Below are positions 611-29,615 of a stretch of 31,922 bases of DNA, in pieces. The stretch is from a virus. The notes below the pieces were generated by a model. That model made no database searches, had not been told where the DNA came from, and saw only the letters and a list, made by a program, of their open reading frames with translations. The DNA lies in the IMG/VR virus record IMGVR_UViG_3300034093_005754, positions 1 to 31,922 of that record; one strand, 5' to 3'. The stretch's first letter is position 1. The number at the start of each line of letters is the position of its first letter. Both the position numbers and the translations under genes were made by a program.

Positions 611-669
611 CTTGACGACGATATAGGAAGTGTGTAAAAATTCTTTTATATCGTCGTCAAGTTTTTTTT
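611..669 (+). terminator. rho-independent terminator (15-bp stem, T8)
   Basis: A perfect 15-bp inverted repeat (611-625 against 647-661) with a 21-nt loop, followed at once by eight T residues (662-669). It would end transcripts of the 1-581 unit. Each stem arm also contains the promoter-like motif TTGACGACGATATA: the left arm on the plus strand, the right arm on the minus strand. Confidence 0.8.
612..640 (+). promoter_or_regulatory. promoter-like motif, site A
   Basis: TTGACG (612-617) is followed by ACGATATA, a 17-nt spacer in all, and a weak -10 candidate TAAAAA (635-640). The extended motif TTGACGACGATATA recurs before other plus-strand cassettes (23756, 26971, 29587). Here it sits inside the upstream terminator stem. 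RNA started near 647 would lack the left stem arm and so escape that terminator, allowing expression of the gene at 673. The -10 is poor, so promoter activity is inferred from the shared motif. Confidence 0.45.
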
Positions 670-672
670 AAA

Positions 673-882
673 ATGAAAGCCAAAAAAGAGCCTTGGATTA
701 TTGTCACAGAAAAGAACGGTAATGTTCATAGATTTAATTATTACACCATTTGTAGTTTACACAACATAAAAGAGGAGGTGGTTCTTACGCAAACTAATGG
801 GAAGTCACATACATTCGTTGGCGATGCTGCTAAGAGTTGTTTAGAACAATGGGAAAGAATTGTAAATAAAGAGGAAAATTAA
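673..882 (+). CDS. hypothetical protein, 69 aa
   Basis: A small soluble-looking protein starting 3 bp after the T tract of the preceding terminator. It has no clear Shine-Dalgarno, because the space before the ATG is the T tract and AAA. The N-terminus is lysine-rich (MKAKKEPW) and is followed by alternating hydrophobic residues suggesting beta strands (IIVTEKNGNVHRFNYY), then a second strand pair and a C-terminal helix with CLEQWERIV. I recognise no family. It converges on the gpM-like tail gene, and their stop codons overlap by 4 bp (TTAA at 879-882). Its expression would depend on the promoter motif embedded in the terminator. Confidence 0.55.
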   Translation: MKAKKEPWIIVTEKNGNVHRFNYYTICSLHNIKEEVVLTQTNGKSHTFVGDAAKSCLEQWERIVNKEEN

Positions 883-1220
883 GGACGAAACTCCTGTTTT
901 AAGCTTAAATTAAGCTCAAAAACGTCATTACCCTTAAATATCCAATTCCACTCTAAGCAACTCCATAATTGGGAGTTAAAGTTAAATGGCGCACCATTTC
1001 TGGAAGTTAAAAACTCTTCAATTTCTTCATAATCATCCCTTGTTACTGCCATTACTTTAGCTTCTTGCATTTCCCTAACTAAGTTTAGTTGAAAATTAGT
1101 CCCCCTTAATTCAGTCCCGCCCTTACGCCTATCTGCGTTTGTGGCGGGACTTTGCTTTAGGGATAGGGGATTCTCCCAAGTTAAAACAAAACTTTGTGGT
1201 GCTGTGGGGTATACTGGCAT
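879..1220 (-). CDS. minor tail protein, lambda gpM-like
   Basis: A 113-aa protein with the pattern of lambda gpM-type minor tail proteins. In the middle is a strand with NFQLNLVREMQEAKVMAVTR, then a helix DDYEEIEEFLTSRNG, a strand pair around PFNFNSQLWSC, and a last strand FELNLSLKQEF. This matches the gpM layout of helix EEATVLESFLEEHGG, a WTPP strand and a final VEFSAEF strand. It lies directly downstream of the tape measure in the direction of transcription, the position gpM has in lambda. In lambda, gpM acts at the tail tip complex before tape measure polymerisation; that role is inferred here. The start ATG has no obvious Shine-Dalgarno. A small plus-strand ORF sits between it and the tape measure. 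Confidence 0.7.
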   Translation of the reverse strand: MPVYPTAPQSFVLTWENPLSLKQSPATNADRRKGGTELRGTNFQLNLVREMQEAKVMAVTRDDYEEIEEFLTSRNGAPFNFNSQLWSCLEWNWIFKGNDVFELNLSLKQEFRP

Positions 1221-1244
1221 AAAATTTAAAAAATAGGTAAGGTT

Positions 1245-1397
1245 ATGGACATTAAGAAGAGGAATGAGGAAATTAAGGGGTGCGTAGGATTAATAATTCT
1301 AATGAGCTTGGTATTTTTCATTAAAGGTGTTGTAGATGGGGATATTAACCTCAATCCTCCTACGAGAGTAATCAAGATTGAGGTTAATGAAAGATAA
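1245..1397 (+). CDS. small single-span membrane protein
   Basis: A 50-aa ORF with a Shine-Dalgarno-like AGGTAAGG (1235-1242) just before its ATG. Residues 1-11 are charged (MDIKKRNEEIK), residues about 12-30 form one hydrophobic segment (GCVGLIILMSLVFFIKGVV), and the tail is polar and ends in EVNER. It lies on the plus strand between two minus-strand tail genes, and its stop is 1 bp from the tape measure stop. No family is recognised. The hydrophobic segment and the ribosome site support a real gene, but the last third also encodes a perfect inverted repeat, so part of its sequence may be under structural rather than protein constraint. Confidence 0.45.
   Translation: MDIKKRNEEIKGCVGLIILMSLVFFIKGVVDGDINLNPPTRVIKIEVNER
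1344..1388. other. perfect 13-bp inverted repeat after the tape measure gene
   Basis: Arms 1344-1356 (ATTAACCTCAATC) and 1376-1388 are perfect complements with a 19-nt loop. On the minus strand the hairpin begins 10 nt past the tape measure stop. Neither side has a clear T tract, so it is not a canonical terminator. It may be an mRNA-stabilising or processing hairpin at the 3' end of the tape measure message, or a weak bidirectional terminator. Confidence 0.5.
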
Positions 1398-1398
1398 A

Positions 1399-4300
1399 TT
1401 ACCTATCATATAAACCACCTCTATTTAAGCTACCTCCAGGACGACGCTCTTGCTTGATTGTCTCTTGGATTTTTGCTTCTAAAGCTTTTTCAAACAAGGC
1501 TTTGTTAATGTTGCCGTTGCCACCCTCGCTATTATTAATGTTCACGTTAGGCGTAATGTTAATCGTATCTCCACTTCTTCCTACGTTATTAATATTCCCT
1601 AAACCTTCACCTATCATACCGCCGCTACTGAAACTCTCCAATTTATTACTACTGTTTAGTTGATTCCATAACTTAGTTTCTTTTGGAGTTAAAACCCGTT
1701 CACCTTCGTTAGCGATAATTAAGCGTGGGTTAAACCCACTTATCGCCCTTTCCTTGTTTAATAAATCCCCAACCATTCCGCCTTTAGCAAAACTAGGGAG
1801 CGTAGCTGAACCAAAGTCTAATCCGCCGTCTAAACCACCTAAGCTAAAACCATCGCTAAAGTCAAATGCTCCGCTAGAACTAAATGGGATTGCGCTACTG
1901 CCTTCGAGTATTCCAAAACTACTCTCTCCAAACGCTCCAAAAATACTATCTAGCACTCCGCCATCTTTGCTACCTGCGCCCATAATATTTTGCAAGTCTA
2001 AAGCCGCTTGTTGTAGCATTGTAGCGGACACACTTAGATTAGCTCCCGCGTTATTTAAAGCGATCGCGCCCACGTCTTTAACTTTATTGCCAAAAATAAT
2101 TTCAGTTAATTTACCAAATAGTTGGTTAGACAGTTCCTTACTTGCAACAGCAGCTAAATTGCTTAAAATACTTTTTGCAATCTCGCTAAAAGCATCGACT
2201 ATACTTCTTTTACTCAACTCTGTCTTTTTCTTTTCTAAGTCTCTCTGCGCTCTATCTAATTCTTTTAGTTGTTTGTTATTGCCTGAATTTTGGTATGCGT
2301 TTCTTACTTCCTGAATATTACCGGACGTATTCATTATAATGTCGCGGCGTTTCTTAGCAATCTCATCTAGGGATTTATTAATATCCTGTAAATCGCCAGC
2401 GTTTTTATTAACAGAGTCGTTCATGAAAAATCCCTTTAGGATATTGTCAAAATCTCCTTTAATTCCGCTAATAGCCTCGGTGAACATATTAAATTCTTTC
2501 GCAACATTGTCTAGTTTTAACTCGTTTAGCTTAAGTAAATTTTCACTAAGTACAGATATTTCTTCTGCTGAATAATTACTTGATAATCCTAGTTTAGCTA
2601 TTTCGTTTTTTTCCTTCTCAAAATCCATCTTAATTTGTGATAAAAGCTGTGCTTTTTGCAATTCCTTGTCTCTAACTCCGAACAAACCCCGACCTCTTAT
2701 TATCTCGGAAGAAATTGCACTACCGGATGAATTTAATTTTTCCATCCTGCCGAGTTCAATGCCTCTATTTGTAATCGGCGCGAGCTTAGTTTGGTAAGAA
2801 TTTTCTGCGTCAAGGTTAGATTTTTCTTTTCCGTAATTACGGAAAGCTTTTAGTCGTTCTATTAATTTTTCTTGTGGACTAAGTAAGGTGTTACCTTGAA
2901 TTTCCAATAATTGTTTCTTGTAAGCATTAGTTAGCTCGTTAGTTTTTATTGTTAATTCATTGGTTAAGCTGACTAAACTAACCATCCCATCCTTATTGTC
3001 AATCGCAAACCGTTCATTGTCTAGTTGCAATGATTTCATTTGCGAGGCTTGGATAGTTTGCGATTTAGTTAATTCGTCGTTAGCTTGCTTAATTCGCTTA
3101 ACTGTATCGGCATAATTAAAGTTAAGATCAACGCCCTCTCTTTTAACAGAATTAACATTGAGAATGGCTTTAAATTCCTTCTGAAAAGCTGCTTCACTCA
3201 TGTTACCGCCCTTACCTCCGCCATCATAATAACGTCTTTGGAGATCTAGTAATTGTTGGTATTGGTCACGGGTTAATTCTAGTAAGCTAATATTTCTTTG
3301 AAGTGATGGAATTTTTAAAACCAACGGATTTAGCGGGTCAATTTCCTCAAGTTTTTGAACTAACTGTAACTGTTGTTGTAGTTGTTCAATAACTTTTGAT
3401 TGTTGCGATATATCCTGCTCGCTTAATCTGAAAAACTCTTTTTTGTCAAAATCTTTCATTGACGCTTTGAGGATGCTATCAATATTGGATTCTAAAAATT
3501 TCAAGCTATTTTTAGCTTCTGCATTTTTAAAAGCTGTAGCTTTAAAACTTAGATCGTTTGTCTGGATTGCGGCTGCGGCTAATCTCGGATCATTAGGAAA
3601 TCTCTTCATTGCCAGATTAAATGCGGCTTGTAAGTCCGGTTTTTGCGCGATCGCTCCATCCGTTTCTCTAACAATTTGCTCTAACAACTCAACATCTTTC
3701 TCTAATTTGCGGCGTAATTCATTAAATTGGAGACTAAACATATCCGCATTACTCATGGTAGGAGATAAACCTTTTAACACCGTTATTCTAGTCCCTAGAG
3801 TAGAATCTTTCGTACTGCTGATGTCTCCTATCGCGGTTTTTTGAGAGGACATAATAAGCCTGTAAGCCTCTAGCCTTTGTTTTAGCTCATTTTCTCTGAT
3901 TTGTTCAGGATTTAGGTTGCTGTTAGTTTGATTAGTTTGATATTGTTGGGCAGCGGTGTTTAATTTAAGTCTACTAGCTTGTGTTACCGCTTCCTGCATT
4001 TGGTTGGGTTGAATACTTCCGCCTTGCATAACAATCTGCACCAATTGTCGCGCTGTATTGCCGTACCGATTTTCTGCTTTGGGGAGGTAATTACCTAGCG
4101 TAATATCACCATCCCCTACTCCTAATGATGCGTTAGGATTTCCCGCAAAAACGGTAGATAAAACTTTTCGGAAGGAGTCTAGCTTTTGCCCTCTACTGTT
4201 CTGTTTTAAGTATTTCTGAACAAAGACTAATTGCTCTTGTGGACTCATTTGAGACAGAGCGTCTATGTTTGTACCCAGTCCTCTAGCCGTAGCGGGCATG

Positions 4301-7300
4301 AACTGAATTAAACCTGTTGCGTTTGTGCGTTTGTTCCTAGCAGATGGCGAAAGTGTACCACCTGTTTCATACAGCATCGTTTTAAGCAGGTCTTCAGGGT
4401 TTGCTCCTACGCTTTGAGCTATTTCGCTAACGCTTTGCAGGAACTTGGTATCTATACGTGGATCTAGCCCTGGAACAAGCGGAACTGATTGGCGTTGTTT
4501 AGCAATGGGTTCGATTACCGATATCAAACCTTCTGCCGCTTTTAATGCGTAAGGTGTAATAGCTTTTTCGTAAGCACTAAAATCGCCTGTTTTCACACCT
4601 TCTTCAATCAAGGTTGTAAGAGTTGAATTTAATCTATCCAACTCTAGTATAGAAATTCCCTTGTCAATAGCTCCCAAGCGTTCATCAGGGTTTTTTCTAA
4701 CGTCTTTACCACCCACACCCCAAAAATAACTAAATGCTCCAAATTTGTTTGCTAAACCAACATCCATTGGATTCAAATATTTACCAGACGGATCGTATTT
4801 ACCCCCTGGAATTACGCCGGGTTTACCCCCTTTAGGGTCATCAAAATGTAGTTCTAACGCATAAGCATTTTTGCTTTTCTCTAACTTAGCAAGTTCCGTT
4901 TGATAATCTTTTCTGGCTTGATCCCCTCTAGCTGACGGTAGTGGGGGTGGCTGAATGAGTTTAAACCCTTTTTGAGCAAAGACTCGCTCGAATACCTTGA
5001 CGGCTTGCTCAGTCCCAATAGATTCAATAGTTCTATTTTCGCCTTTGTAGTTTAAACTTCCTGTTTGATTTGTTCCGCCTGTACCTGTTTTGATGTCTAG
5101 TCTGTGTCCAGGGGTTAGTATTATTGATTTTGTTGGCTGTTGTTGAGGCATCGGCCAATCTGCTACCCTGTTCAGCATCTTGTTGTCTTGTGTGGTATCA
5201 ACAACCTTTTTGGTTGTATCCAATTTAATCCCAGGTACTTTAAAAGTTTTACCTAACTGGGTAGTTGGGTTTATCCTTTGACCGTTGATCGTTACCTCCC
5301 AATGTAAATGCGATCCTGTGCCACGCCCAGTGCTTCCAACTTTACCTATTACATTACCTTGCTGTACAACGTCCCCAACCTTTTTAAGTAATTCAGATAA
5401 GTGAAAAAAGCGGTTTACAACTTTTTTACCTTCTGCGGTGATGGTTTCAACTTCGACCATATTGCCCGCACCACCATTCCAACCACCTTTAGATGTGATA
5501 ACCGTGCCTGTCAGTGGTGCTTTAATTGGTGTTCCTGTAGCGTCTTCAAAATCAACACCGTTGTGCATTTTTCTAGTGCCGTCCAATGGGTCTGTACGCA
5601 TTCCGTACTTAGATGTTACGCGCCCCGGCGTAGGTCTAAGCAAAGTTTGATTAACAGTCTGTAAATTATCCAATCCGTAGAACTTTTTGACAGCCCCTAA
5701 CGGATTACTAACAAACTCTTTAGCACCCTGCTCTAACTGTTGCCCAGCTTTTTCCCCAAACACCGTGCTAACCGCCGATTGAACACCGCCCGCTAAATTT
5801 TGTAACAAGCCTTGTCCGGTAGCCAGGGAAGCTAACCAGTTGGAGGTTTTTATTCCCATATCAGCGATCGCAGTCCCCACGCGATCAAAGCCGTTCTCAA
5901 AAGACTTAACTAAATCTGCAAACTTAGTACCAAGACCTTCTATCCATGAGTTGCTAGTTTTACTTAAGTCTTTAATACTATCTTCAGCTTTTTTAGTTGC
6001 GTCTACAACACTGTTAGATAAGTTATTTATATTCTTATTAATTTCATCAACCGTCCTGTTTACGTTTTTAAGACTGAGATTAAAGTTATCGGCAATACTA
6101 GAATCTATCGAGATAATTTTTCCTGGTAAACTCCGTTGTAGTTCTATAGCTTGTAGCTGAATATCTTGGACGTTATTCTGGTAGTCAATCCTCTGTTTTC
6201 TTGCTTCTAGTCGTTGTTTCTCTATTTCGGTTGTTTGGGAAATTACATTAATAATCCCCTCAATAAACTGAGTGTAGATATTGTCCCCAGCACCAATTAA
6301 AGCCTCTCTAAGTTTATTCTGTACTTTAGGGTTTTCAAGGGTCTTTTGCGCTTTCTCAAATTCAATACCCACAGCTTGAGATTCTCGAACGGCTGCGCGA
6401 TAATAGTCGGTGACTTGCTTTGTTTGTTGGTAGAGGCTTTGGATTAAGTTATATTTCTGCTCTGCAATTTGTTGTTGCATATCAACAGTTTGGATTTGCA
6501 TTTCCTTAACTTTTATAAAGCCACTTAAAATCTCTTTTTCTTTACTTCCATCAATACTTCTTTCTTGTGCAGCCTTTAAGGTGTCTATACCGCTTCCTTT
6601 ATTTAAATTAAGGGCGTTTAAGACTCCATCTAAATCATTAACTTCCAATTGAGCGGACATCTCTTGGATTTGTTTTAAATTATCGGCAATTTTACCAGTC
6701 AGAGTGGCTTGAGTTTTTAAGTTGTTCGTATATTCCAGTTGCCCTGGTAAAACGTCCCCACTGCTGCCAAGGTTAAATAAATTAGTTTTCTCTAAACTTA
6801 ATGCTGTATCTCTATATTGTCTTAGATCGTTAAACTTAGCTTCTAAGTTCCTTATTTCAATTGCAAATTTTTGCATTTCTGTTAAGGAATTTTTAATAGC
6901 CTTAGTCATCTTGTCTTGTTCTTGAATAACTGTGGCTAAATCTTGTTTAGTTACCTTAATTATTTGATTAATTTGTTCAATTTCACTTTGATAAAGTTTG
7001 GGATTTTTCTTTAGTTCTTCCCAATACTCCAAATAAGTTTTTAAAGTTTCTACTTGTTTGTCTAAATTAGCTTTAGTTCCGCCAAACAATTCTAAGGGCT
7101 TTTCTCTTCTTTGACTTAATTCTTTTTCTTGTTCTTGCAGTTCTCTTAATTGTTGAATGTCGCCAGGATTGTTAGCAATAACAGCCCGACGCTTCATTTT
7201 AATATCATCCAAAGATTTATCAATGGCTTGAATTTCTTGGATAGCGTCTTGTATGGCAGGAGAATTACTATCTTTCAAAATATCGAAAGTGTTTTGTTGC

Positions 7301-12696: not shown

Positions 12697-12701
12697 ATAA
12701 T

Positions 12702-16766: not shown

Positions 16767-16771
16767 CTTAA

Positions 16772-17072: not shown

Positions 17073-17077
17073 AAAAC

Positions 17078-19492: not shown

Positions 19493-19525
19493 TTTTTTTA
19501 AGGTTAAAAAAACTGATTAGTGCTT

Positions 19526-19569: not shown

Positions 19570-19587
19570 CTTTACTCCTCTAAAAAA

Positions 19588-22500
19588 ATGTTTAACGAAG
19601 TTTATGCTCCGTCCGCAAAACCTGTGTTTTACCGCACTTATTCAAGAGGTAAAAAAGAGACATGGCAAGATGTTTGTGACCGGACAATTACGGCATTAAT
19701 TTCTCTGGGAAAATTAACTAAGACTGAGGGTGACTTAATTAGGCGATCGCAGGAAGAATTTAAAGTATTAAGTAGTGGAAGATGGCTGTGGTGTGGTGGT
19801 ACAGATTGGTTAAAAAAGCCAGAAAACGTTTACGGTGCTTATAATTGCTCATCCACAAACATTACAGACTGGGAAGCATTAAGCTTAATGATGAATTTGG
19901 CTATGCAGGGATGCGGGACTGGCGCAGTGTTGGAAGATAAATATATTAAAAATCTTCCTATTATAAGGAATAATTTAAGCGTAGAGATTGTTAATTTACC
20001 TGGCACTGTAAAAAAAGAAAACAGGCACGATGACACTATCGTTAGCGGCGCGCGCGGACAAGTTAACATTTTTGTTGGAGATAGCCGTAAGGGTTGGGTA
20101 GACTCTTACCTTACACTTCTAGAGTTGTCTTCAAGGGAAGATTTAGCGAAAAACGTTAAAGTTTTCGTTTGCTTAGGTGCGGTAAGAAGTAGTGGGGAAA
20201 AACTTAAAGGCTTTGGCGGAACAGCTAATCCCATAGCTTTAGCTGGGATGTATGGAAAATTAGCTAAGATTTTAAACGGGGCTATAGGTCGCCAACTTAC
20301 CGCTTTAGAGTTATGCAAGTTAATTGATGAGGCTAGTGTTACAATTGTAGCCGGAAATATAAGAAGGTCGGCGGGCATGAGACAGGGTTCGCCAGAAGAT
20401 ATAGAGTTTGCAACAGCTAAAGATAACTTGTGGCAACAAGACAATGAGGGTAACTGGAAAATAGATCCTGACAAAGATTGCTTAAGAATGGCTAATCATA
20501 CGTTAGTTTATCACCGTCGCCCAACTTTAGAAGAGGTCAAAAAAAGTGTGCAAAAACAATTCCACAGCGGTGAAGGTGCAATTCAATGGGCTGGCGAAGC
20601 GGTAGCTAGAGCTAACGTGGATTTACTCTCTAATAAGGATTTAAAAAATAAGTTTTTAGACTTATACAATAAGTCCTTAAATGAAGCATTAAATTTTTTA
20701 GCTAAGTTAGGGCTGTTGAGTATTACTGAAGCGGAAGAAAGGATGTCTAGGTACGCTACCAACCCTTGTTTTCGTGGGGATATGAAAATATTAACTAAAG
20801 ATGGTTACAGAGCATTCGAGTCGTTGGACGGTCAAGATGTAGAGATAATTAACGCAGAGGGCAATGTTTCTCTATCTCATATATGGTGTTCAGGTGAAAA
20901 GGAAACCGTAAGGGTAGGAATGGGGGCTTATGGAAGTATTCACTGCACTCCAGATCACTCTTTTTTAAATATTGATGGCAAAAGAGTTGACGCATCTGAA
21001 TTAAGACCGGGTGACAGATTAATGCCATTCTTAAAAGTGCCAGAGCATAAGAATAAAATATTCGTTTGTTTAGGATTTGTCCAAGGTGATGGTCAATTAT
21101 CTGATTTATCTGATTTGAAAAACGACAAAAAAGGGCAACTAGGTGTTGCTGTCAACATAGGTAAAAAGGATCAAGAAATCCTAGAATTTTTCCAAGAAAC
21201 GGAAGGTTTGAAATGCAAGAAACATGGCGAAAGGCGTATTTATGTTAACGGACTGAATGAGTTAATTGACAAATACGACTTTTCTCTTTACACCCTTCCA
21301 TTTCGCGCACTCCCATCCACTTATAAAGGCTGGGACTTAGACATAAAAGCATCGTTCTTGTCTGGACTTTATTCAGCTAACGGCAGTGTTCTAAAAAACG
21401 GCAGAGTGACCTTAAAGACGACCTGTAGAGAAATGGGCGAACAGATCGTTGATTCTTTAAAAGCAGACTTTGGCATAGAAGCTTATATAACCGTTAACCG
21501 TCCGACGACCGTGTCGTTCCCTAATGGTATTTACCAATGTAGAGAAAGTTACGACGTAAATATTCAGCAATACAAAGAGAGACTTTCATTCTTCAACCAA
21601 ATCAACTTTATTCATTCGTACAAGATTGATAAATTTGCCAAAACTCTCTTGGCAACCTCTCCCTCAATATCGGTAGTAGAAAAACAAGGGATTGTAAAAG
21701 TTTATGATTTTTCTGAACCAATAACGCACTGGGGTGTAGTAGAGGGCTTTGTCGCGCATAATTGCGGAGAAATTGTGGGTAACAATTTTTTCTGCGATCT
21801 CGCTGAAGTACACCTAAACACGCTAGATGGAAAAGACTTAAATAGTTTAAGAGACTCATTTAGGGCTGCGGGTTTAATTGCAGCCGTACTATTAAATGAC
21901 AAATTCCCTGACGAGAGATATCAAAAATCTAGGGAGTTAGACCCTATTGTTGGCGTTAGCTTTACTGGCTTATTTGACTTTTTCGTTAATTTATTTGGGG
22001 AAAGTTGGTTGCGCTGGTGGGAAGGCGGCAGGGAGGAATACTCAGACAGAGACTTTATCACATCAAAGGATTTAGAAAATTGGATAGAAACATTCCCAGA
22101 TGAGGTAGTTGAAATTATTAACGATTGGAATAAAAGCCAAGGGAAATTTGCTATAAAACACCCCGGCGTTTGCAACGGACTACTTTTTAAAGCCTTGGAA
22201 GAATTTTACCTGACGCTTTTTAAAGATGAAGCCCATAAAGCAGTTTGGGAATACTGTCATGCACATTCGCTTAAACGCCCCAATAGATGTACTACGGTGC
22301 AACCAAGCGGGACTAAGAGTCTCTTAACTGGCGCGTCTCCTGGTTGGCATCCTCCAAAAGCTGCTAGATTTATCCGTCGGATTACTTTTGGCAGAGACGA
22401 TGCAGTAGCTTTAGCTTGTATGGACTATGGCTACAGTATTATTCCTTCCCAATCTTGTAAAGATGCTGAGGGTAATTTATTAAACGATCCATTTGACCCA

Positions 22501-22971
22501 AGAGTTACGGAATGGTTGGTAGAAATTCCCACAAAAACTAGCTGGGCGGATAACATCGGGGAAGATGTAGATATAAGCAAATTTAGCGCAAAAGCCCAAT
22601 TTGACTTTTACCTACAAGTACAAAATTACTACGCAACTCACAATACTTCAGCAACTTTGGAAATACGTCAAGAGGAAATTGGGGAATATGCACAACTCCT
22701 TTACCAGAACATCCAAAATTGTGGCGGATATAGTTCTGCGGCACTTTTGGCAAGATTTGACGGTGGCGAAACTTTCCCTCGTCTGCCATTTGAGCCAATT
22801 TCTAAGGAAAAATATGAAGATTTATGGGGAGAGGTTTTAGCTCGCCGTAAAAATAGTAGTTTTGATGAACTTTTGCAAATAAGGTTGGGCAATGTAGCGG
22901 TAGAAGATTCTCAAGTTGGCCCGGCCGGATGCGACTCGGATAAGTGCTTATTTAAGGAAGTAGGCAAATAA
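19588..22971 (+). CDS. nrdJ: class II ribonucleotide reductase precursor with intein
   Basis: An 1127-aa precursor. Removing the 332-aa intein leaves a 795-aa adenosylcobalamin-dependent, RTPR-type reductase that turns ribonucleotides into deoxyribonucleotides for phage DNA synthesis. Motifs are YNCSST (C87, redox pair); NP-C-GEI, where the radical Cys is re-formed by splicing (N392, then C726 with E728); NNFFC (C736, second of the pair); and a C-terminal CDSDKC (C1115/C1120) shuttle pair. The length is close to that of Lactobacillus leichmannii RTPR (739 aa). Class II enzymes need no second subunit and are common in cyanobacteria and their phages. It forms a one-gene plus-strand cassette between the capsid gene and 23168-23692, ending in a strong terminator. 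Confidence 0.93.
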   Translation: MFNEVYAPSAKPVFYRTYSRGKKETWQDVCDRTITALISLGKLTKTEGDLIRRSQEEFKVLSSGRWLWCGGTDWLKKPENVYGAYNCSSTNITDWEALSLMMNLAMQGCGTGAVLEDKYIKNLPIIRNNLSVEIVNLPGTVKKENRHDDTIVSGARGQVNIFVGDSRKGWVDSYLTLLELSSREDLAKNVKVFVCLGAVRSSGEKLKGFGGTANPIALAGMYGKLAKILNGAIGRQLTALELCKLIDEASVTIVAGNIRRSAGMRQGSPEDIEFATAKDNLWQQDNEGNWKIDPDKDCLRMANHTLVYHRRPTLEEVKKSVQKQFHSGEGAIQWAGEAVARANVDLLSNKDLKNKFLDLYNKSLNEALNFLAKLGLLSITEAEERMSRYATNPCFRGDMKILTKDGYRAFESLDGQDVEIINAEGNVSLSHIWCSGEKETVRVGMGAYGSIHCTPDHSFLNIDGKRVDASELRPGDRLMPFLKVPEHKNKIFVCLGFVQGDGQLSDLSDLKNDKKGQLGVAVNIGKKDQEILEFFQETEGLKCKKHGERRIYVNGLNELIDKYDFSLYTLPFRALPSTYKGWDLDIKASFLSGLYSANGSVLKNGRVTLKTTCREMGEQIVDSLKADFGIEAYITVNRPTTVSFPNGIYQCRESYDVNIQQYKERLSFFNQINFIHSYKIDKFAKTLLATSPSISVVEKQGIVKVYDFSEPITHWGVVEGFVAHNCGEIVGNNFFCDLAEVHLNTLDGKDLNSLRDSFRAAGLIAAVLLNDKFPDERYQKSRELDPIVGVSFTGLFDFFVNLFGESWLRWWEGGREEYSDRDFITSKDLENWIETFPDEVVEIINDWNKSQGKFAIKHPGVCNGLLFKALEEFYLTLFKDEAHKAVWEYCHAHSLKRPNRCTTVQPSGTKSLLTGASPGWHPPKAARFIRRITFGRDDAVALACMDYGYSIIPSQSCKDAEGNLLNDPFDPRVTEWLVEIPTKTSWADNIGEDVDISKFSAKAQFDFYLQVQNYYATHNTSATLEIRQEEIGEYAQLLYQNIQNCGGYSSAALLARFDGGETFPRLPFEPISKEKYEDLWGEVLARRKNSSFDELLQIRLGNVAVEDSQVGPAGCDSDKCLFKEVGK
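20767..21762 (+). other. intein within RNR (332 aa) with LAGLIDADG endonuclease
   Basis: In-frame intein, precursor residues 394-725. It starts with Cys1 (CFRGDMKILTKDGY, block A). Block B has TPDH (T454, H457), and the end is VAHN followed by +1 Cys (H724, N725, C726), so every splicing residue is present. The insertion is inside the conserved NPCGEI active site of the reductase. The middle carries two LAGLIDADG-type motifs: LGFVQGDGQL (D501) and FLSGLYSANGSV. The second has Asn598 where the catalytic Asp is expected. The protein-splicing part looks intact, while the homing endonuclease may be weakened or dead. Confidence 0.92.
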
Positions 22972-22974
22972 ACC

Positions 22975-23163
22975 CGTCAGGTAAATTACAATAAATCCTC
23001 CAAAGGCTTATACAAAAGCACTTTGGAGGATTTTTAACTTTAAGCCCACGTCAGGTAAAAAGGGGTATTTTTGTAAAAGCGTCAGGTAAAATCCTTATTA
23101 GAGAAGAAAACGCTTGACGCGATTTGTGTGACGTTTCCCTAAAAACTCCATTTTTACTTGACG
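22975..23163. repeat. dispersed 11-bp repeats CGTCAGGTAAA
   Basis: Exact copies of CGTCAGGTAAA lie at 22975-22985, 23049-23059 and 23080-23090. A near copy in inverse orientation (TTTTTACTTGACG) is at 23151-23163. All are in the non-coding stretch between the converging RNR gene and the 23168-23692 gene. A shorter form (GTCAGGTAA) lies at 25294-25302 before another plus-strand gene. No function can be read from the sequence. Confidence 0.6.
22993..23035 (+). terminator. rho-independent terminator of the RNR gene
   Basis: A perfect 13-bp stem (22993-23005 against 23021-23033) with a 15-nt loop. The right arm runs into a T5 stretch (23031-23035). It begins 21 bp after the RNR stop. Confidence 0.85.
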
Positions 23164-23167
23164 TTTT

Positions 23168-23692: not shown

Positions 23693-23755
23693 ATCTATAA
23701 AGTAAGTAATTATTTATATCAGTATATCCTAAATTTATATTTTTTAATTTACCTA

Positions 23756-23785
23756 TTGACCGACGATAGAAAGGTGTGGTATAAC
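23756..23785 (+). promoter_or_regulatory. promoter-like motif, site B
   Basis: TTGACC (23756-23761), an 18-nt spacer starting GACGATAGA, and a near-consensus -10 TATAAC (23780-23785). It differs from the other copies by one extra C after TTGAC. It would drive the NADAR cassette starting near 23849. Confidence 0.6.
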
Positions 23786-23848
23786 CAGAATGAAGTTAAA
23801 GAGTAAGAGAGGAATATAAAGACGACTAAAACAGAAGTAATTGAATTG

Positions 23849-24184
23849 ATGAAGTCCGCGTCTAGCGAAGAAGATTGGAATAACAAATGCGATCAAGTAA
23901 AATCTGCTTGCGGCGGATATCCCGATTATTGGTTTGCAGAAATAATTGCATCTGGACTGGCGAATGAAATAAAAGCTGGTTTTTTTATGCTTACAAAACA
24001 AGATTTGTACGCGGATTTATTAAAACCTATTCCTTACAAGCCTGTTACGATATGCGGCAGGGTATGTGACTCGCCAGAGGACATTATAAGACTCGGTTAC
24101 GAGCTTGTAGCTACAGATCCAGAAAAGTTTAAAGAATATCAACAATTAATGGACGATGGTTTTAAAAAATCTTTAGGTTCGTAA
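23849..24184 (+). CDS. hypothetical phage protein, GYPDYW family
   Basis: About 111 aa from ATG 23849. The opening MKSASSEEDWNNKCDQVK and the following GGYPDYWFAEIIASGL closely follow a small protein widespread in phages (pattern MKSS..EEEWN.NCD.VK...GGYPDFW). The family has no known function. Homologues as I remember them continue upstream of this Met with residues like TK.EVIEL, and the DNA here encodes exactly TKTEVIEL in frame before it. The true start may therefore be a non-ATG codon (ACG 23822 or ATA 23816) close behind the GAGAGG ribosome site at 23807-23812. The C-terminal half is specific to this phage. First gene of the NADAR cassette. Confidence 0.7.
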   Translation: MKSASSEEDWNNKCDQVKSACGGYPDYWFAEIIASGLANEIKAGFFMLTKQDLYADLLKPIPYKPVTICGRVCDSPEDIIRLGYELVATDPEKFKEYQQLMDDGFKKSLGS

Positions 24185-24187
24185 TTT

Positions 24188-24619
24188 ATGGCTTGGACAA
24201 AAAACTGGTTTAGTAATTTTGAGCCAATGGACACGCCCTTTATTTACCAAGATATTAAATACTGGACTGCCGAAAATTTCTTTCAAGCTATGAAGCCCGA
24301 GAGGGAGGATTTAACTACAAGGAAGTTAATATCTGAAGTAAGTCCTTCTGAAGCTAAAAAAATGGGTAGAAAGGTAAAGCTTAGGAAGGATTACAATTGG
24401 GATGAAATTAAATTCCTTGTAATGGAAGATATCTTAAGGTTTAAATTCATGGAGGGTACAAGTTGGTACTATAAATTAATGGCTACGGGAAGTGAGGAAA
24501 TTATAGAATGGAATAATTGGGGTGACAGAATTTGGGGTAAAACTTACGACGGCGTTGGCGAAAATCACTTGGGAAAAATTTTAATGAAAATTAGAGAGGA
24601 ACATAAAAATGGAGATTAG
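24188..24619 (+). CDS. NADAR (YbiA-like, DUF1768) domain protein
   Basis: A 143-aa protein matching the NADAR/YbiA fold over its whole length. It opens with WFSNFEP, then YWTAENFFQAMK, SPSEAKKMGRKV, a helix with MEDILRFKF, then EIIEWNNWGDRIWGK, and ends with the family signature GENHLGKILMKIRE. Members of the family act on N-glycosidic bonds in ADP-ribose-related compounds, and some reverse ADP-ribosylation of DNA by DarT-type toxins. In a phage, a role against ADP-ribose- or NAD-based host defence is an attractive inference, but housekeeping repair of riboflavin intermediates (as in YbiA) is also possible. It starts 4 bp after the preceding stop and overlaps the next gene by 11 bp. Confidence 0.88.
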   Translation: MAWTKNWFSNFEPMDTPFIYQDIKYWTAENFFQAMKPEREDLTTRKLISEVSPSEAKKMGRKVKLRKDYNWDEIKFLVMEDILRFKFMEGTSWYYKLMATGSEEIIEWNNWGDRIWGKTYDGVGENHLGKILMKIREEHKNGD

Positions 24620-24932
24620 ATTAATGATTGGCGGTAAAGATTACGGAAAGTTAAAATCAGCGGAAATTAATTTCTCTTACGGCGTAAGGCATTTAACAAG
24701 GGGATCGCATTTTTCCATAATAAAAATTAGTAAGAAAAGTGTAATCCTTCAAAAAACTATAAACCGACCCCAGATAGATTGCAATGGAGAGATTACTTTC
24801 GAGTCTGCTATTTGGAAAGTAGCCAGGAGTTATTTCAACAACGAATTTAAGGCTTTAACTAGAGAAGAGTTTTGCAAAACATTCTATTTTGATGAAGATG
24901 ATTTAAAAGGATTAAACAGCGATGCAAATTAA
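24609..24932 (+). CDS. hypothetical protein, 107 aa
   Basis: Its ATG lies inside the end of the NADAR gene (11-bp overlap), and the NADAR coding region supplies the ribosome site (AGAGGA), a sign of coupled translation. The protein opens with strand-like sequence (EIRLMIGGKDYGKL), has a basic middle (GVRHLTRGSHF, ISKKSVILQKTI), and ends in an acidic tail (FDEDDLKGLNSDAN). No family or motif is recognised. Coupling to NADAR suggests a linked function. Confidence 0.65.
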   Translation: MEIRLMIGGKDYGKLKSAEINFSYGVRHLTRGSHFSIIKISKKSVILQKTINRPQIDCNGEITFESAIWKVARSYFNNEFKALTREEFCKTFYFDEDDLKGLNSDAN

Positions 24933-25131
24933 TTTTAGTGTCGCATGGCAAAGCAAGTTACTAAAAAAGAGGTTACTTGCGATGACCTTTCATGGTAGAC
25001 CGCTATATGTAGACGATGAAGATTTTGAATTTTGGACACAGTATAGATTTTCCCAATTAGCAAGAGGAAAAACTGTTGATGAAGTGATTGACGAAACTTG
25101 GGACGATTATTACGCAGCTTTAGAGGTTTAA
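24922..25131 (+). CDS. hypothetical protein, 69 aa
   Basis: It starts 11 bp inside the previous gene. Residues 1-20 are moderately basic (QSKLLKKRLLA). Residues 21-69 are acidic and aromatic: PLYVDDEDFEFWTQYRFSQL, then VDEVIDETWDDYYAAL. An alternative start at Met21 (MTFHGRPLYVD) would give a compact 49-aa acidic protein. The acidic, aromatic-rich composition recalls DNA-mimic and other small phage inhibitors, but that is only composition. No family is recognised. Confidence 0.55.
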   Translation: MQINFSVAWQSKLLKKRLLAMTFHGRPLYVDDEDFEFWTQYRFSQLARGKTVDEVIDETWDDYYAALEV

Positions 25132-25135
25132 AGCC

Positions 25136-25294
25136 ATGCCAGTTAAAAAAATAGGCACTATTGTTGGTAGCTACTTTAAAGATATTGACGGTTGGCGAAG
25201 AATCAAATCTTTAGATAGGGAATGTTCCGAACAAAGAATGTTGCAAACTTGGACAAGTAATAAAAAAATTATCGCGGTAGAAATTTTAAAATAG
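25136..25294 (+). CDS. hypothetical protein, 52 aa
   Basis: A 52-aa ORF starting 4 bp after the preceding stop, with only a weak ribosome site (the GAGGT within the previous gene's last codons). It is basic, with strand-like IGTIVGSYFKD, a helix with SLDRECSEQRMLQTW, and a C-terminal strand KKIIAVEIL. No family is recognised. Tight packing in the cassette supports it as a gene. Confidence 0.5.
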   Translation: MPVKKIGTIVGSYFKDIDGWRRIKSLDRECSEQRMLQTWTSNKKIIAVEILK

Positions 25295-25311
25295 TCAGGT
25301 AATTAAAAAGT

Positions 25312-25548
25312 ATGCCAGAAATAAAATACATAAAATGCCCTAGTTGCGGATGGGTTGGGGATTCCAATCCTACGCCAGCAGAAATTTATGGAAGTTTAAA
25401 AACTGAAGTTCCGACAGTAATAAAAACTTTACAATTAAACAGATCTCTTGGCAATTACGGTTTTAGCGGGAGTTATGCTGAATGTCCAAATTGCGGAAAA
25501 GATTTATCGGACGGAAAATTTAACGTAAACCCCGATTATTTATGCTAA
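25312..25548 (+). CDS. zinc-ribbon protein, 78 aa
   Basis: A 78-aa protein with two Cys pairs, CPSC (residues 9-12) and CPNC (residues 58-61), spaced as in a zinc ribbon with a long insert. Its function is unknown; such phage proteins often bind nucleic acid or host transcription factors. The leader contains GTCAGGTAA (25294-25302), which could serve as its ribosome site and matches the repeats found after the RNR gene. It is the last gene of the NADAR cassette and is followed by a terminator. Confidence 0.65.
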   Translation: MPEIKYIKCPSCGWVGDSNPTPAEIYGSLKTEVPTVIKTLQLNRSLGNYGFSGSYAECPNCGKDLSDGKFNVNPDYLC

Positions 25549-25598
25549 AATATTATCGTGGTTCTTAGCTTGAGTCACTCCTCACTATTTACTATGGT

Positions 25599-25637
25599 AA
25601 TCCCTTAACTCAGCACCAGAAGTTAAGGGATTTTTTT
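25599..25637 (+). terminator. rho-independent terminator of the NADAR cassette
   Basis: A perfect 12-bp stem AATCCCTTAACT (25599-25610) against 25621-25632 with a 10-nt loop. The right arm runs into seven T (25631-25637). It lies between the converging zinc-ribbon gene and the portal gene, and acts clearly in the plus direction. Confidence 0.85.
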
Positions 25638-25642
25638 ATTAA

Positions 25643-26944
25643 TTATTCCTTCCCTGCGCCCGCACTTAACTGTTGATTTTGGGTTGATTGGTTTTGAGCT
25701 TTCATTAAAAACTCTTGTCCGTTAACTGCCCAAATTCCCCAATCTAATTCAAAGCCACCCCTTTTAATGACATTTTCATAGTACGATTCATACCCGAATT
25801 TCATGCAATACTCTAGGCTAATGCACCACTTAACCTGAGTTCCGACCAACCCTCGCAAAGCTTGGATATTTCTTGAGTACATCAATGCGGGTTGGTTAGC
25901 TATATCCTTACCTGAGTTTGATTCCATTCCCAACCCTGGGAAAAACCATAGCGGTACGCCAGGCGGCACTAACTCTTCCCTAAGCTTCATCCAATAATCA
26001 AAAACGCCCTTAAGACTTTCATTACCATTACTATAAGCTTTTCTTACGTCAGCTTTATTTAACAAGTAAAGGTTGGAAATTAAGCCTTGTGCTAATTGCG
26101 ATTTATGCTCAAGCATATAAGCTTCTTTGTATTCTTCATCCGCGCCTTCGGGCATGAGATGAAGCCAAGGAGAAATTGCGGCGGCTCGGACAGCTTGGGC
26201 GACATCTGGACGGTGTTCTTTTAAGTATTCGTAAGCTTCAACTGACTGTAAAAATAAGGAGTCGCCATACCTTCCTGAAGCTCCTAATTCTTCATATTTA
26301 AAATGCAATATTTTCCAATCAGGAAATACCCTATCGTCAGGACTTTCGCTAATCATTTTCCTTTGTGAATAAGTTCCTTTTAGTTCCCCTTCACTATTTA
26401 CATCCACAAACATAGAGAAAGTTGGGAGGTATTGGATTTTTTCTATAAAGTAATCTTTCTTATTTTTACTGTCGAAGTTTAATCCTAATTCTGCAAAACT
26501 ATCGCCAAACCTCAGCATCCTCCTTACGCCTGGCTCTAAGGCATTACCTCCTAGAACTAAATCTTTTCCAAATTGCCTTGATGCCATTTCTTTACTTACA
26601 CTAATTAAATTTTTATCTACTTCTACGTCATCCATCTTAGGGTTAACTTTCCAACTACGAACTTCGCCATTTTCTCTAATAAAAACATCCCTAGCTAAAA
26701 TACTACTAGAGTGTCGTACCTCTGGATTCCATATTGACATCTCTATCAATTGGTGAGTTAAATAGCCATCCCCCATAATTGTTCTAACGGGAATTTCCGG
26801 TAATCCTAAGCTTAAATTCCTCTTAGAAGCTAACCCCAAACGTAAAGACTCAGAAGATCCTGTAAACCCTCGCGGTTTTCTTATCCTTGCAAGGATTTGC
26901 GTGAAAATGTTTTTTACTCTTTGGAAAAAATTAATACTAGGCAT
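25643..26944 (-). CDS. portal protein
   Basis: A 433-aa portal subunit. Portals form the dodecameric ring at one capsid vertex through which DNA enters and leaves. It opens with the usual N-terminus (MPSINFFQRVKNIF). It has a long alpha/beta body with EPGVRRMLRFGDSFAELGL, FPDWKILHFKYEELGASGRYGDSLF (the typical 'DQWRHFK...G..YG.S' segment), a helix YEYLKEHRPDVAQAVRA, and an Asn/Gln-rich C-terminal tail. I use the ATG at 26944. A longer start at 26992 would place 16 basic residues over the opposite-strand promoter motif and has no better ribosome site. It heads the minus-strand virion genes in this window. No terminase is present upstream of it here. Confidence 0.8.
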   Translation of the reverse strand: MPSINFFQRVKNIFTQILARIRKPRGFTGSSESLRLGLASKRNLSLGLPEIPVRTIMGDGYLTHQLIEMSIWNPEVRHSSSILARDVFIRENGEVRSWKVNPKMDDVEVDKNLISVSKEMASRQFGKDLVLGGNALEPGVRRMLRFGDSFAELGLNFDSKNKKDYFIEKIQYLPTFSMFVDVNSEGELKGTYSQRKMISESPDDRVFPDWKILHFKYEELGASGRYGDSLFLQSVEAYEYLKEHRPDVAQAVRAAAISPWLHLMPEGADEEYKEAYMLEHKSQLAQGLISNLYLLNKADVRKAYSNGNESLKGVFDYWMKLREELVPPGVPLWFFPGLGMESNSGKDIANQPALMYSRNIQALRGLVGTQVKWCISLEYCMKFGYESYYENVIKRGGFELDWGIWAVNGQEFLMKAQNQSTQNQQLSAGAGKE

Positions 26945-26970
26945 AATTTTTATTTTTTTACTTTTGGGAC

Positions 26971-26999
26971 TTGACGACGGTATATAAACCATGTATTAT
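26971..26999 (+). promoter_or_regulatory. promoter-like motif, site C
   Basis: TTGACG (26971-26976), a 17-nt spacer beginning ACGGTATATA, then -10 TATTAT (26994-26999). This is a full match to the recurring TTGACGRCGRTATA element. It starts the methyltransferase cassette (27036), with the portal gene reading the other way. Confidence 0.75.
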
Positions 27000-27035
27000 A
27001 TAATTATACTTTTAAATGTATAAAGAGAGGTAACT

Positions 27036-27440
27036 ATGGAAGGATTAAAAAAAATAAACATTGGCGACATTTACTGGATGCCTGGCGACATTTACTGGAT
27101 GCCTTCAAATAAACCTATTGATAAAAAATCAATAGATATTAAATTAATAGTTACTAAAGTAGGCACTAAGTTTATCTATGCTAATAATGAAGATACAAAT
27201 TGGGAGTATAAGTTTACTTTTAAATCTGATGGTGTACTGGATTTAGTAAATAATATGTGTTCCGGTAAAGCTTATTCTGAGGAGCAATGGGAGAAGCAAA
27301 AGCTAATTATCAAGTTGGATAAATTAACTCAAAAATTCAAACAAGAGTTTTCGCAAATTAATAATTCTACAGACTTTAAAAAATATCAAGAGTTGGTTAG
27401 CGAAATGAATGAATTGTCTCAAAAGATTTTAAATCTATGA
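27036..27440 (+). CDS. hypothetical protein, 134 aa, with tandem repeat
   Basis: A ribosome site AGAGAGG precedes the ATG. The N-terminal half is beta-like (GDIYWMP, then IDIKLIVTKVGTKFIYANN, then EYKFTFKSDG). A helical second half follows, with EEQWEKQKLIIKLDKLTQKFKQ and ELVSEMNELSQKIL. The layout of a small beta domain that begins GDIYW and includes VTKVG, followed by a helix after AYSEEQWE, matches a beta-barrel-plus-helix protein common in phages and of unknown function. A perfect 21-bp in-frame tandem repeat duplicates GDIYWMP. It overlaps the adenine methyltransferase by 4 bp (ATGA). Confidence 0.6.
   Translation: MEGLKKINIGDIYWMPGDIYWMPSNKPIDKKSIDIKLIVTKVGTKFIYANNEDTNWEYKFTFKSDGVLDLVNNMCSGKAYSEEQWEKQKLIIKLDKLTQKFKQEFSQINNSTDFKKYQELVSEMNELSQKILNL
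27063..27104 (+). repeat. 21-bp perfect tandem duplication in coding sequence
   Basis: Two identical 21-bp units (27063-27083 and 27084-27104) encode GDIYWMP twice. Having no differences, the duplication is probably recent. Confidence 0.95.
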
Positions 27441-28357
27441 AGATCGCATACAACAACCCTCAAGCTATAACCGTCCTTCCCAATAATGCAAAATTAAAAT
27501 ACGAACATGACTTTAATTGTTTAACAGAAATAGTTAAAGATAAAAATTTTAAACCATTCCTTAAGTGGGTAGGAGGCAAAACTAGATTAATTCCTCAATA
27601 CGAAGAATTAGGATTAATCCCCGCCGAATTTAATACTTATTTTGAGCCATTTTTAGGTGGCGGCGCAATGTTTTTCCATCTCCAAAATGCGGGGTTAATA
27701 CAGAGGGCTTTGTTAAGTGATTTAAACTCGGATTTAGTGAATACTTATAAAGAAGTTAAGGATAATTTAAGTAAATTAAAACAAGTTCTTTTAAAGGAAT
27801 TTGCAGAATCTCACGATAAGGTTTTTTTTGAAGAAGTAAGGAACAAAACTTTTACGTTAGATGTTTATAATGCCGCAAAGTTTATTTACTTAAATAAGGC
27901 TTGTAGATCAGGAATGTATCGCGTTAATAAAAATGGCGAGTTTAATGTCCCGATGGGGGATTTAACACAAAAGATTTACCAGCCAATATTATTAAGTGAG
28001 GCAAACTTAGCCTTAAACAGTAATAATGTAGCGGTAGTTAATACATCTTTCTTTAATATTAGTCATTTGCCTCAACCTGGCGATTTTGTATTTTTAGATC
28101 CACCTTATCATGGGACTTTTAATGGTTATAACAAAAGCCCGTTTGGGGAAGATGAGCAAGTTAAATTAAGAGACGTATGTAGGGAATACAATGAAAATAA
28201 AATAAAGTTTTTACTTTGCAATTCTCACAATAGTTTTATTTTAGATTTGTACAATGGGGATGAATTTAAAATTAATGAAGTTTGGAGAAATGGTACGATA
28301 AATAGTAAAGGCGCGGAAAGAGGTAAAGTTAAGGAGTTAATTATTAGTAATGTATGA
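27437..28357 (+). CDS. DNA N6-adenine methyltransferase (Dam/D12 class)
   Basis: A 306-aa D12-class N6-adenine methyltransferase that uses S-adenosylmethionine to methylate adenine in DNA. Motifs are WVGGKTRLIP near residue 42 (motif X), FEPFLGGGA at 69-77 (motif I, AdoMet binding), and DPPY at 221-224 (motif IV, catalytic). The first 35 residues are an extra, poorly conserved extension. The order of motifs is that of Dam-type enzymes, but the target (GATC or other) cannot be read from sequence alone. No restriction enzyme is nearby, so it is an orphan, likely to protect phage DNA or copy host methylation marks. It is translationally coupled to the genes on both sides. Confidence 0.9.
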   Translation: MKIAYNNPQAITVLPNNAKLKYEHDFNCLTEIVKDKNFKPFLKWVGGKTRLIPQYEELGLIPAEFNTYFEPFLGGGAMFFHLQNAGLIQRALLSDLNSDLVNTYKEVKDNLSKLKQVLLKEFAESHDKVFFEEVRNKTFTLDVYNAAKFIYLNKACRSGMYRVNKNGEFNVPMGDLTQKIYQPILLSEANLALNSNNVAVVNTSFFNISHLPQPGDFVFLDPPYHGTFNGYNKSPFGEDEQVKLRDVCREYNENKIKFLLCNSHNSFILDLYNGDEFKINEVWRNGTINSKGAERGKVKELIISNV

Positions 28358-28574
28358 CCCATTTTTAAACACAATAAAAATACTTCATATAGAGGTATTG
28401 TGGCAGATGCTTTATAACATAAAAGAAAGCGTAGAAATATTGGAAAAACAATCTGTGGCGCAGGAGAAAAGTAAGGATTATAAAAATTATTATAAATCCT
28501 TTAAATACCTAAATCAGTGCCGCTGGAAAGTTTTGGAGATTAGCAAAGAAATAGAAAGTAGGGTTTTGAAATAA
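28350..28574 (+). CDS. hypothetical protein, 74 aa, between the methyltransferases
   Basis: A small, probably all-helical protein. The middle reads IKESVEILEKQSVAQEKSKDYK, then NYYKSFKYLNQCRWKVLEISKEIE. It overlaps the adenine methyltransferase by 8 bp and the cytosine methyltransferase by 1 bp, so all three are made together. No family is recognised. The position suggests a partner or accessory of the methyltransferases, but nothing else supports that. Confidence 0.6.
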   Translation: MYDPFLNTIKILHIEVLWQMLYNIKESVEILEKQSVAQEKSKDYKNYYKSFKYLNQCRWKVLEISKEIESRVLK

Positions 28575-29590
28575 TGAAAAAGTTTTTATGGTTTTCGCAT
28601 TTTAGCGGCGGTGGCGGCTCAACTTTGGGAGCAATCCAAGCTGGGTTTATGCCTTTGCTGGGGATTGAGTGGGATAAGAAAGTGGCGGAATTATATGAGA
28701 AGAATTTAGGTAAAGTAATTTGCCAAGATATAGGAGAGGTAAGTATCCTAAGTGTTATAAAACATATTCCATTAAAAGAGGCAAGGGAAAAGAATAATGA
28801 GATTTTAGTAATCCAAACTTCGCCACCATGTCAGGAGTATTCCCAATTAAAACTAAATAAAAATCCTAATTCCGAAAGTGCAAAAGTCATTTGGAAGACA
28901 AGGAAGTTTTATGCTTTATTTAGACCTGAATATGTAATTTTAGAAAACGTTAGGGCTTATGCTAAAAGCGAGGTTTATATTAAATTTAAAAATTACCTTA
29001 AGGAATTAGGCTATGAAATAAGTTTTGAGGAGATAGTTAACTGTGCTGACTATGGCGTGCCACAAACTCGCCAAAGATTAATTACTATTTTTAACTATAG
29101 AAATTTCCCTGCCGTAAGGATTAGTTCTACGCATAGTAAAAATAATGGTGAATGGGTAGGATGGTACTCAGCAATTGAAGATTTAATCCCTAATTTAAAA
29201 GAAGTTAGTTTAACCAGAAAACAACTTAACTCTCTAAGTTTAAGGAATAAAGGCTTTAGTAATGCCAAGGTAGTCGTAGAAAGAGTTGGCGTAAGAAGTG
29301 GGGTGAATAAAATCCGTGAGGAAGATTCACCAATTTGGACTTTAAAAGCATCTTTAGGAAGCGATGGAAAGGGTGCGAATAGGGAAAAGTTAATAGATGT
29401 AAGCATAAATGGCGTTGTAAAAGGCTTAAACGTGGCGTGTTTGGCTAGATTGCAGACTTTTCCGCCAAGTTATGAATTTTCTGGCAAAAACGCCTTGGAT
29501 GTTCATGTAATTGGCAATTCTGTACCACCATTACTTATTAAAGTAATTTGTGAGGAGATAAAAAATACTTTTAATACTTTTGGGGATTGA
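28574..29590 (+). CDS. DNA C5-cytosine methyltransferase (Dcm-like)
   Basis: A complete 338-aa C5-cytosine methyltransferase. Motifs in order: FSGGGGSTLGAIQAGF (motif I, AdoMet site), SPPCQEYS with catalytic C86 (motif IV), VILENVRAY (motif VI, ENV), GVPQTRQR at 161-168 (motif VIII), a variable target-recognition region at about 175-290, and VIGNSVPPLLI (motif X). It methylates cytosine in a specific sequence that cannot be told from the protein. Together with the adenine enzyme it gives the phage two kinds of DNA mark without a restriction partner. The last codons overlap the -35 of the next promoter motif. Confidence 0.93.
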   Translation: MKKFLWFSHFSGGGGSTLGAIQAGFMPLLGIEWDKKVAELYEKNLGKVICQDIGEVSILSVIKHIPLKEAREKNNEILVIQTSPPCQEYSQLKLNKNPNSESAKVIWKTRKFYALFRPEYVILENVRAYAKSEVYIKFKNYLKELGYEISFEEIVNCADYGVPQTRQRLITIFNYRNFPAVRISSTHSKNNGEWVGWYSAIEDLIPNLKEVSLTRKQLNSLSLRNKGFSNAKVVVERVGVRSGVNKIREEDSPIWTLKASLGSDGKGANREKLIDVSINGVVKGLNVACLARLQTFPPSYEFSGKNALDVHVIGNSVPPLLIKVICEEIKNTFNTFGD

Positions 29591-29615
29591 CGGCGGTATA
29601 TAAAAAGTATATAGT
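29587..29615 (+). promoter_or_regulatory. promoter-like motif, site D
   Basis: TTGACG (29587-29592), a 17-nt spacer beginning GCGGTATATA, and -10 TATAGT (29610-29615). The -35 overlaps the stop codon of the cytosine methyltransferase gene. It drives the 29640-31422 genes. Confidence 0.75.

Follow-up and report, generated by a model that had tools for sequence, protein, structure and literature searches.

This analysis concerns a stretch of viral DNA, the full 31,922 bases of IMG/VR record IMGVR_UViG_3300034093_005754 (the window), and a promoter-like motif that recurs in it at four places, sites A to D (Table 1). The initial annotation described at each site a -35 element followed after 17-18 nt by a -10-like hexamer, and all four are present, with spacings of 17 nt at A, C and D and 18 nt at B. 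Sites B, C and D look like sigma-70-type promoters that carry an extra box, RCGRTA, in the spacer. They and the copies in related contigs show the sigma-70 (SigA-type) layout of a TTGACA-like -35 and a TATAAT-like -10, 16-18 nt apart and upstream of a gene; at site A the -10 matches at only four of six positions. The placement before plus-strand cassettes, given for all four sites in the same annotation, is supported for B, C and D; site A, most likely a terminator, is not supported as a promoter. Judged from sequence, the repeats are on balance probably early (pre-replicative) promoters that belong to an uncultivated lineage of cyanophages, also usable as recombination joints.

The lineage is known from a capsid protein that is 99-100% identical at 16 IMG/VR loci, part-length at some; its longest contig, G001, has 72,697 bases. 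The class II ribonucleotide reductase (RNR) of the window has its nearest relatives in Cylindrospermopsis phages (52.8%), whose capsid proteins are only 31% identical to that of the window, and for the last 9 kb the phage collection holds no close DNA relative. No more distant relative of the lineage, at 60-80% identity, was found. An IS200/IS605-type TnpB gene in G001 is closest to one from Anabaena sp. UHCC 0204 (89%), a likeness compatible with a filamentous cyanobacterial host that proves nothing. This is probably a little-known virus family infecting freshwater cyanobacteria; a capsid-based search of genome contigs found no integrated relative. Contig counts given below are not independent because G002 and G006, from one dataset, are near duplicates (25,998 of 26,000 bases identical). 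Where they overlap, L162 and L079 do not differ from L210 and L211, so each is counted once. Three contigs brought in by the pattern only were dropped from later counts: G011 and G012 do not align to the lineage, and G010 differs in G+C. Gene calls come from a rough script of our own that misses genes, notably in G009 (71% coding, tape-measure gene missed).

Table 1. Features of the window discussed in the text.
Feature	Coordinates	Strand	Description
127-aa protein	1..384	+	Candidate regulator of the initial annotation; ends the recJ-side gene run in G001
Site A inverted repeat	610..662	+	Perfect 16-bp repeat, arms 610-625/647-662 (ACTTGACGACGATATA/TATATCGTCGTCAAGT), 21-nt loop, then T-run
Site A as promoter	612..640	+	TTGACG, box ACGATA 618-623, 11 nt, TAAAAA 635-640 (4/6); weak
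69-aa ORF after site A	673..882	+	No Shine-Dalgarno visible; sub-threshold DUF5513 match; may not be a gene
Site B promoter	23756..23785	+	TTGACC 23756-23761, box GACGATA 23762-23768, 11 nt, TATAAC 23780-23785; 18-nt spacer
NADAR segment under site B	23929..25215	+	NADAR gene 24188-24619 plus small ORFs
Site C promoter	26971..26999	+	TTGACG, box ACGGTA 26977-26982, 11 nt, TATTAT 26994-26999
Run under site C	27036..29590	+	Four ORFs, two of them methyltransferases: 134-aa ProQ-C-like (below cut-off), D12 N6-adenine methyltransferase 27437-28357, 74-aa ORF, C5-cytosine methyltransferase 28574-29590
Site D promoter	29587..29615	+	TTGACG, box GCGGTA 29593-29598, 11 nt, TATAGT 29610-29615
Run under site D	29640..31422	+	STAS-like DUF4325 29640-29906, 140-aa ORF (no match), 97-aa ORF, DUF1828 30763-31422

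Promoter-like copies in the window and its relatives

The shared motif family is real. Whole promoters (the core plus a -10 in register) number four in the window against a mean of 0.08 in 100 dinucleotide shuffles (largest count 2), and the core TT[GT]AC-N1-2-RCGRTA occurs five times, each arm of site A being included, where 50 first-order random sequences average 0.22 (maximum 2). A loose 12-mer, TTGACGRCGRTA, with up to two mismatches is not significant at seven matches against 4.43 expected, a number reached in 19 of 100 shuffles, and site B misses it because of its one extra base. Whole promoters are also in excess in the relatives (9 against 0.20 in G001, 6 against 0.08 in G007 and 8 against 0.10 in G009), these contigs and the window being homologous, so that the counts overlap and are not independent. 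The promoters at B, C and D are letter-for-letter identical in 15, 15 and 13 contigs, that is, in all whose alignment covers each place.

The copies lie largely between genes: over the four contigs, 26 of 27 whole-promoter matches, counterparts of site A included, have their midpoint outside genes. By the rough gene calls, each of the 26 has a same-strand gene start 12-304 nt downstream, the shortest distances (12 and 20 nt) possibly reflecting miscalled starts. The single match inside a gene, G001:16934(-), lies before a tail-fibre gene and is taken as chance. The term "between genes" is loose for sites C and D, since C covers 22 bases at the start of a minus-strand gene (25643-26992) and D covers 4 at the end of the methyltransferase gene before it.

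Which genes lie behind these promoters? In G001 copies precede a primase/helicase-like DUF3854 gene (24530+), the gene for RecJ with those for thymidylate synthase and dCMP deaminase behind it (28631+), a run that includes a DEAD/ResIII helicase (22587-), the methyltransferase run (60006+) and the STAS-like run (62611+); further copies precede genes without a match. Judged by position, the capsid, tape-measure and terminase genes have no copy at their head. The earlier suggestion of a single regulon of accessory genes is thus too narrow, because the same promoters precede replication and nucleotide genes. By established knowledge of phages, such a set is the pattern of early genes. A region of G009 (48171-50278; L048 10016-12278) holds three minus-strand genes that share an almost identical stretch of about 50 bp, promoter plus leader, near an actin-like gene (below the Pfam cut-off) and a TPR gene. 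A leader motif, AAGTTAAA, is found in 8 of 14 promoter leaders, but occurs 43 times across G001 against 7.7 expected by base composition.

In the mechanism proposed here, each copy would be a host-type sigma-70 promoter of the form TTGAC-N1-2-RCGRTA-N11-TATAnT, in which a second box, usually ACGGTA, would sit in the spacer between about -29 and -24 and keep its register with the -10. Soon after infection, transcription by host RNA polymerase would begin at every copy and drive nearby genes for replication, nucleotide metabolism, DNA methylation and host interaction, and the main virion genes, lacking promoters of this kind, would use other signals. Reading of the box by a phage-encoded factor is possible. 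Copies share 14-18 identical bases and could by virtue of this act as recombination joints, a promoter-gene-terminator cassette being lost or gained between two of them and one promoter still remaining.

As far as searched, the motif appears to belong to this lineage. The search form TTGACN1-2ACGGTA, which among the four sites of the window matches only C, occurs in 12 of 15 lineage records, the reversed-pattern control giving 0 in all 15. It is absent from 10 named cyanophages and from 11 distant capsid relatives (11 searched of 21 distant capsid loci). In eight cyanobacterial genomes, of 80 loci found via the transposon gene, it is no more frequent than the reversed control; on this test, weak since these genomes may not include the true host, a host regulon was rejected. 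The wider core TTGAC-N1-2-RCGRTA occurs once in Cr-LKS4 (100,000 of 101,125 bases), at position 22129 within the annotated capsid gene, and is absent from Nostoc phage A-1 and the first 50,000 bases of N-1. At least 120 stretches matched in a scan across IMG/VR; among the matches listed, besides L079/L162 of the lineage, only L060, L081 and L094 have two or more cores, and these are read as unrelated to it. The longer form TTGACCGACGGTA-N11-TATA was found in two stretches, one of the lineage and the other, L293, aligning with none of 22 contigs compared. L060 is a viral contig with four promoter-like repeat copies at 176-1122, the repeat start, CCGTTGACAACGG, being a palindrome.

Gene cassettes and hairpins at promoter-like copies

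The recJ locus provides direct evidence of cassette exchange at promoter copies: five contigs show it in two states, and the crossover lies inside the motif. In the two-promoter state (G007, L208 and L079) the order is promoter, N6/N4 DNA methyltransferase, promoter and recJ, the methyltransferase frame having been read in G007 and L208, and a hairpin, folded for L208, directly precedes the second promoter. In the one-promoter state (G001 and L210) the left flank of the first copy is joined to the right side of the second. The L210 hybrid retains the TTGACA of the first G007 copy together with the right part of the second, which places its crossover within ACGGTAGATA; the G001 crossover, compared with L208, lies within ACTTGACGACGGTA. 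These two hybrids occupy different left-flank haplotypes, and the change between the states may be read as loss or as gain. The two promoter copies are 2,493 nt apart in G007 and 1,485 nt apart in L208, the longer spacing being due to an insert within the methyltransferase gene. In G007 Pfam names only the methylase.

This insert in the G007 methyltransferase (3942-6320; L051) is intein-like by eye, with an HNH-type frame, and the L208 gene is uninterrupted. The RNR of the window (19588-22971) likewise carries an intein-like insert, with a LAGLIDADG domain and an intein splicing match below the cut-off.

Other changes of gene content lie near promoter copies or apart from them. L028 and G008 lack the gene at G001 68619-68888. 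The L028 crossover falls in a run that the intergenic regions on either side of the gene have in common, a short way upstream of the boxed promoter 68545, which is lost together with the gene; in G008 it falls further upstream, near ATTAAATTAGCGATCGC. An exact 75-bp intergenic repeat (L045 11325-11399/11973-12047; G001 68325-68399/68973-69047) flanks the same gene, and the actual crossovers used other shared runs of these regions. Junctions in L208 and L079 lie 20-65 nt upstream of the promoters 22587(-) and 24530(+), a divergent pair, at a place that in G001 holds an IS200/IS605-like insertion. The NADAR segment is absent from 8 of 14 spanning contigs, a fifteenth, G004, ending inside it; its loss (window about 23818-25215; G001 near 58150-58253) leaves a 35-codon stub of the first gene. 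A promoter-mediated origin of this deletion was rejected: the junction lies about 172 nt downstream of promoter B, and its two sides have only a few bases in common. The ATG of the first gene of the segment reads ACG in the window, G007 and G004.

Site A, described initially as a promoter, is most likely an intrinsic terminator at which plus-strand transcripts of the recJ-side genes would end: a hairpin, a T-run and a poor -10 argue for this function and against a promoter. The fold of 600-672 has -26.4 kcal/mol (z -6.9), with 0 of 200 shuffles as good. The hairpin folds in all seven contigs found (by an anchor containing TTGAC), one of them with two arm changes. Its left arm spells the promoter core, the same core doubling as a stem, and for this reason an exact reverse copy of the motif appears on the minus strand at 660-649. 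A second element of this design precedes the DNA polymerase III alpha gene (G001:8012(-)); it has a 10-bp stem, a loop of 10 nt and T5. A hairpin scan near 17 sites found strong hairpins at these two loci, weaker ones at two (58081 and 60006) and none at 13; it missed the hairpin just upstream of the recJ promoter, which yet folds well in L208.

A recurring 41-bp hairpin, AAATCCTCCAAA...TTTGGAGGATTT, is found at 22993-23033 in the window, at 4301-4341 and 57318-57358 in G001, at 19284, 47609 and 48309 in G009 and at 31938 in G007, with GTCAGGTAAAA and TTGACGTTTT elements near some copies. An Rfam search gave no match.

The spacer box and its possible readers

Thirteen promoters aligned by hand share TTGAC, one or two bases, RCGRTA, 11 nt and a TATA-like -10; the alignment omits site A and the pol III site, and its members were picked mostly by the motif. 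The box stands 11 nt from the -10 in 11 of the 13, 12 nt in one and 10 nt in another (G001:68545, with TTGCAC). At three copies (site B, G009:34687 and G009:50266) TTGAC and the box are one base further apart, yet the box remains 11 nt from the -10; in view of these, the -35 spacing floats and the box stays in register with the -10. In a listing by hexamers only, in which the box was not required, RCGRTA is found at 8 of 13 intergenic places in G001 (9 of 14 rows) and at 8 of 16 in G009 (9 of 18 rows), against 3 of 23 and 0 of 7 rows, respectively, inside genes. The near-constant distance and the hexamer-only listing support the earlier proposal that conservation reaches beyond what sigma contact needs.

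Several observations weigh against a common class of boxed early promoters that double as joints. Conservation of the box among the 13 aligned promoters is inflated by the motif-based choice. Strong intergenic promoter-like sites without the box make up 5 of 13 in G001 and 8 of 16 in G009, and one of the eight boxed places of G009 (2158-) falls within the tape-measure gene missed by the caller. Site A and the site upstream of the pol III gene have poor -10s and form T-run hairpins. Among the proteins scanned, a part of the whole, no regulator or sigma factor was identified. Only one length-changing junction lies on a promoter core, the NADAR deletion and others falling elsewhere.

Could a phage protein read the box? 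It is a tentative possibility that a phage factor recognizes RCGRTA from inside the spacer and co-ordinates the whole early set, the same site doubling as a cassette joint; if this were true, an arriving cassette would fall under the early programme at once. The candidate regulator in the window, a 127-aa protein, has a Myb-like match above its cut-off (PF00249, E=3.5e-7), matches to HTH_17 (PF12728) and sigma-70 region 4 (PF04545) below their cut-offs, and PHROG matches to regulator/excisionase, transposase and terminase-small-subunit families. It has no homologue in the phage collection, its best hit among solved structures is at E=0.2, and its single-sequence model is poor (mean pLDDT 57.3). 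No evidence connects it with the box. Among the other proteins scanned, part of the full set, neither a phage sigma factor nor an integrase is named.

The likeness of the copies could also come only from recombination that copied one promoter, the box having no function. Copying does happen, as the approximately 50 bp, running into the leader, that the three G009 promoters share indicate, and the recJ crossover lies inside the motif. Two features make descent an unlikely explanation of the box by itself: the 11 nt between box and -10 vary where the box hardly does (a comparison biased by the choice of sites), and the box-to-(-10) distance is kept at the three copies with 18-nt -35 spacing.

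A regulatory alternative, which we regard as rather improbable, is that RCGRTA and the -35 form an asymmetric operator, ACTTGACGACGGTA, through which a phage repressor silences all early promoters, as in L5. The site is asymmetric, overlaps the -35 and is oriented with transcription, as L5 operators and stoperators are, and is similar to them in length. L5-type repressors are monomers that use two DNA-binding domains to bind asymmetric 13-mer sites (PMC9283540), and the 127-aa protein combines its Myb-like match with a weak second HTH match and the PHROG match to excisionase/transcriptional regulators. GACGGTA-type words away from promoters and hairpins do occur but, as judged by eye, make no convincing scattered stoperator-like set such as that of L5, and the 127-aa protein is the only candidate repressor. 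No integrase or repressor family is named among the other proteins scanned, which leaves lysogeny unsupported. The actin-like gene of G009 (below cut-off) might, however, mean plasmid-like maintenance.

Boxes of the T4 MotA type stand in for the -35; a middle promoter of this kind, in which a phage activator binding near -30 replaces sigma contact with the -35, would suit a box near -27 in register with the -10, but is very improbable here, given that TTGAC is kept in 13/13 or 12/13 at each position (biased by the choice of sites) and that no MotA or AsiA family is named among the proteins scanned.

Relation to known systems and significance

The probable early promoters of this lineage resemble most closely, among known kinds, the promoter early stem-loops (PeSLs), described as mobile regulatory cassettes of T4-like phages (PMC4503421). 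As far as that description goes, both are repeated early-type promoters at which gene cassettes change, and for the lineage the recJ junction is direct evidence of such change. Terminator-like hairpins may be a further likeness, though they accompany only a few copies here, and the lineage differs in having the extra spacer box. By the genes matched (a Pol III alpha-type polymerase, the class II RNR and the capsid) the lineage is not T4-like; its terminase matches, by name, a T4likevirus-type Pfam N-terminal model.

Repeated motifs have been described in other cyanophages. The freshwater Microcystis phage Mic1 has predicted promoter motifs repeated 10 and 8 times (PMC7156551); their sequences differ, they are clustered in a few kb, and Mic1 has no TTGACN1-2ACGGTA match. 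Nostoc phages A-1 and N-1 have many asymmetric intergenic motif copies, discussed as promoter or stoperator and not consistently in gene direction (PMC4916379). Their sequences differ too, the commonest 10-mers including TGACTCCGGG in A-1 and CCCGGAATCA in the first 50,000 bases of N-1. A text search of the literature for TTGACGACGGTA gave a single paper, on an unrelated matter.

The repeats give an uncultivated cyanophage lineage a candidate class of early promoters with a conserved spacer element. Natural contigs show a methyltransferase cassette lost or gained between promoter copies, the downstream replication gene keeping a promoter. The idea that regulatory sequences may guide phage mosaicism thereby becomes testable outside the T4 group.

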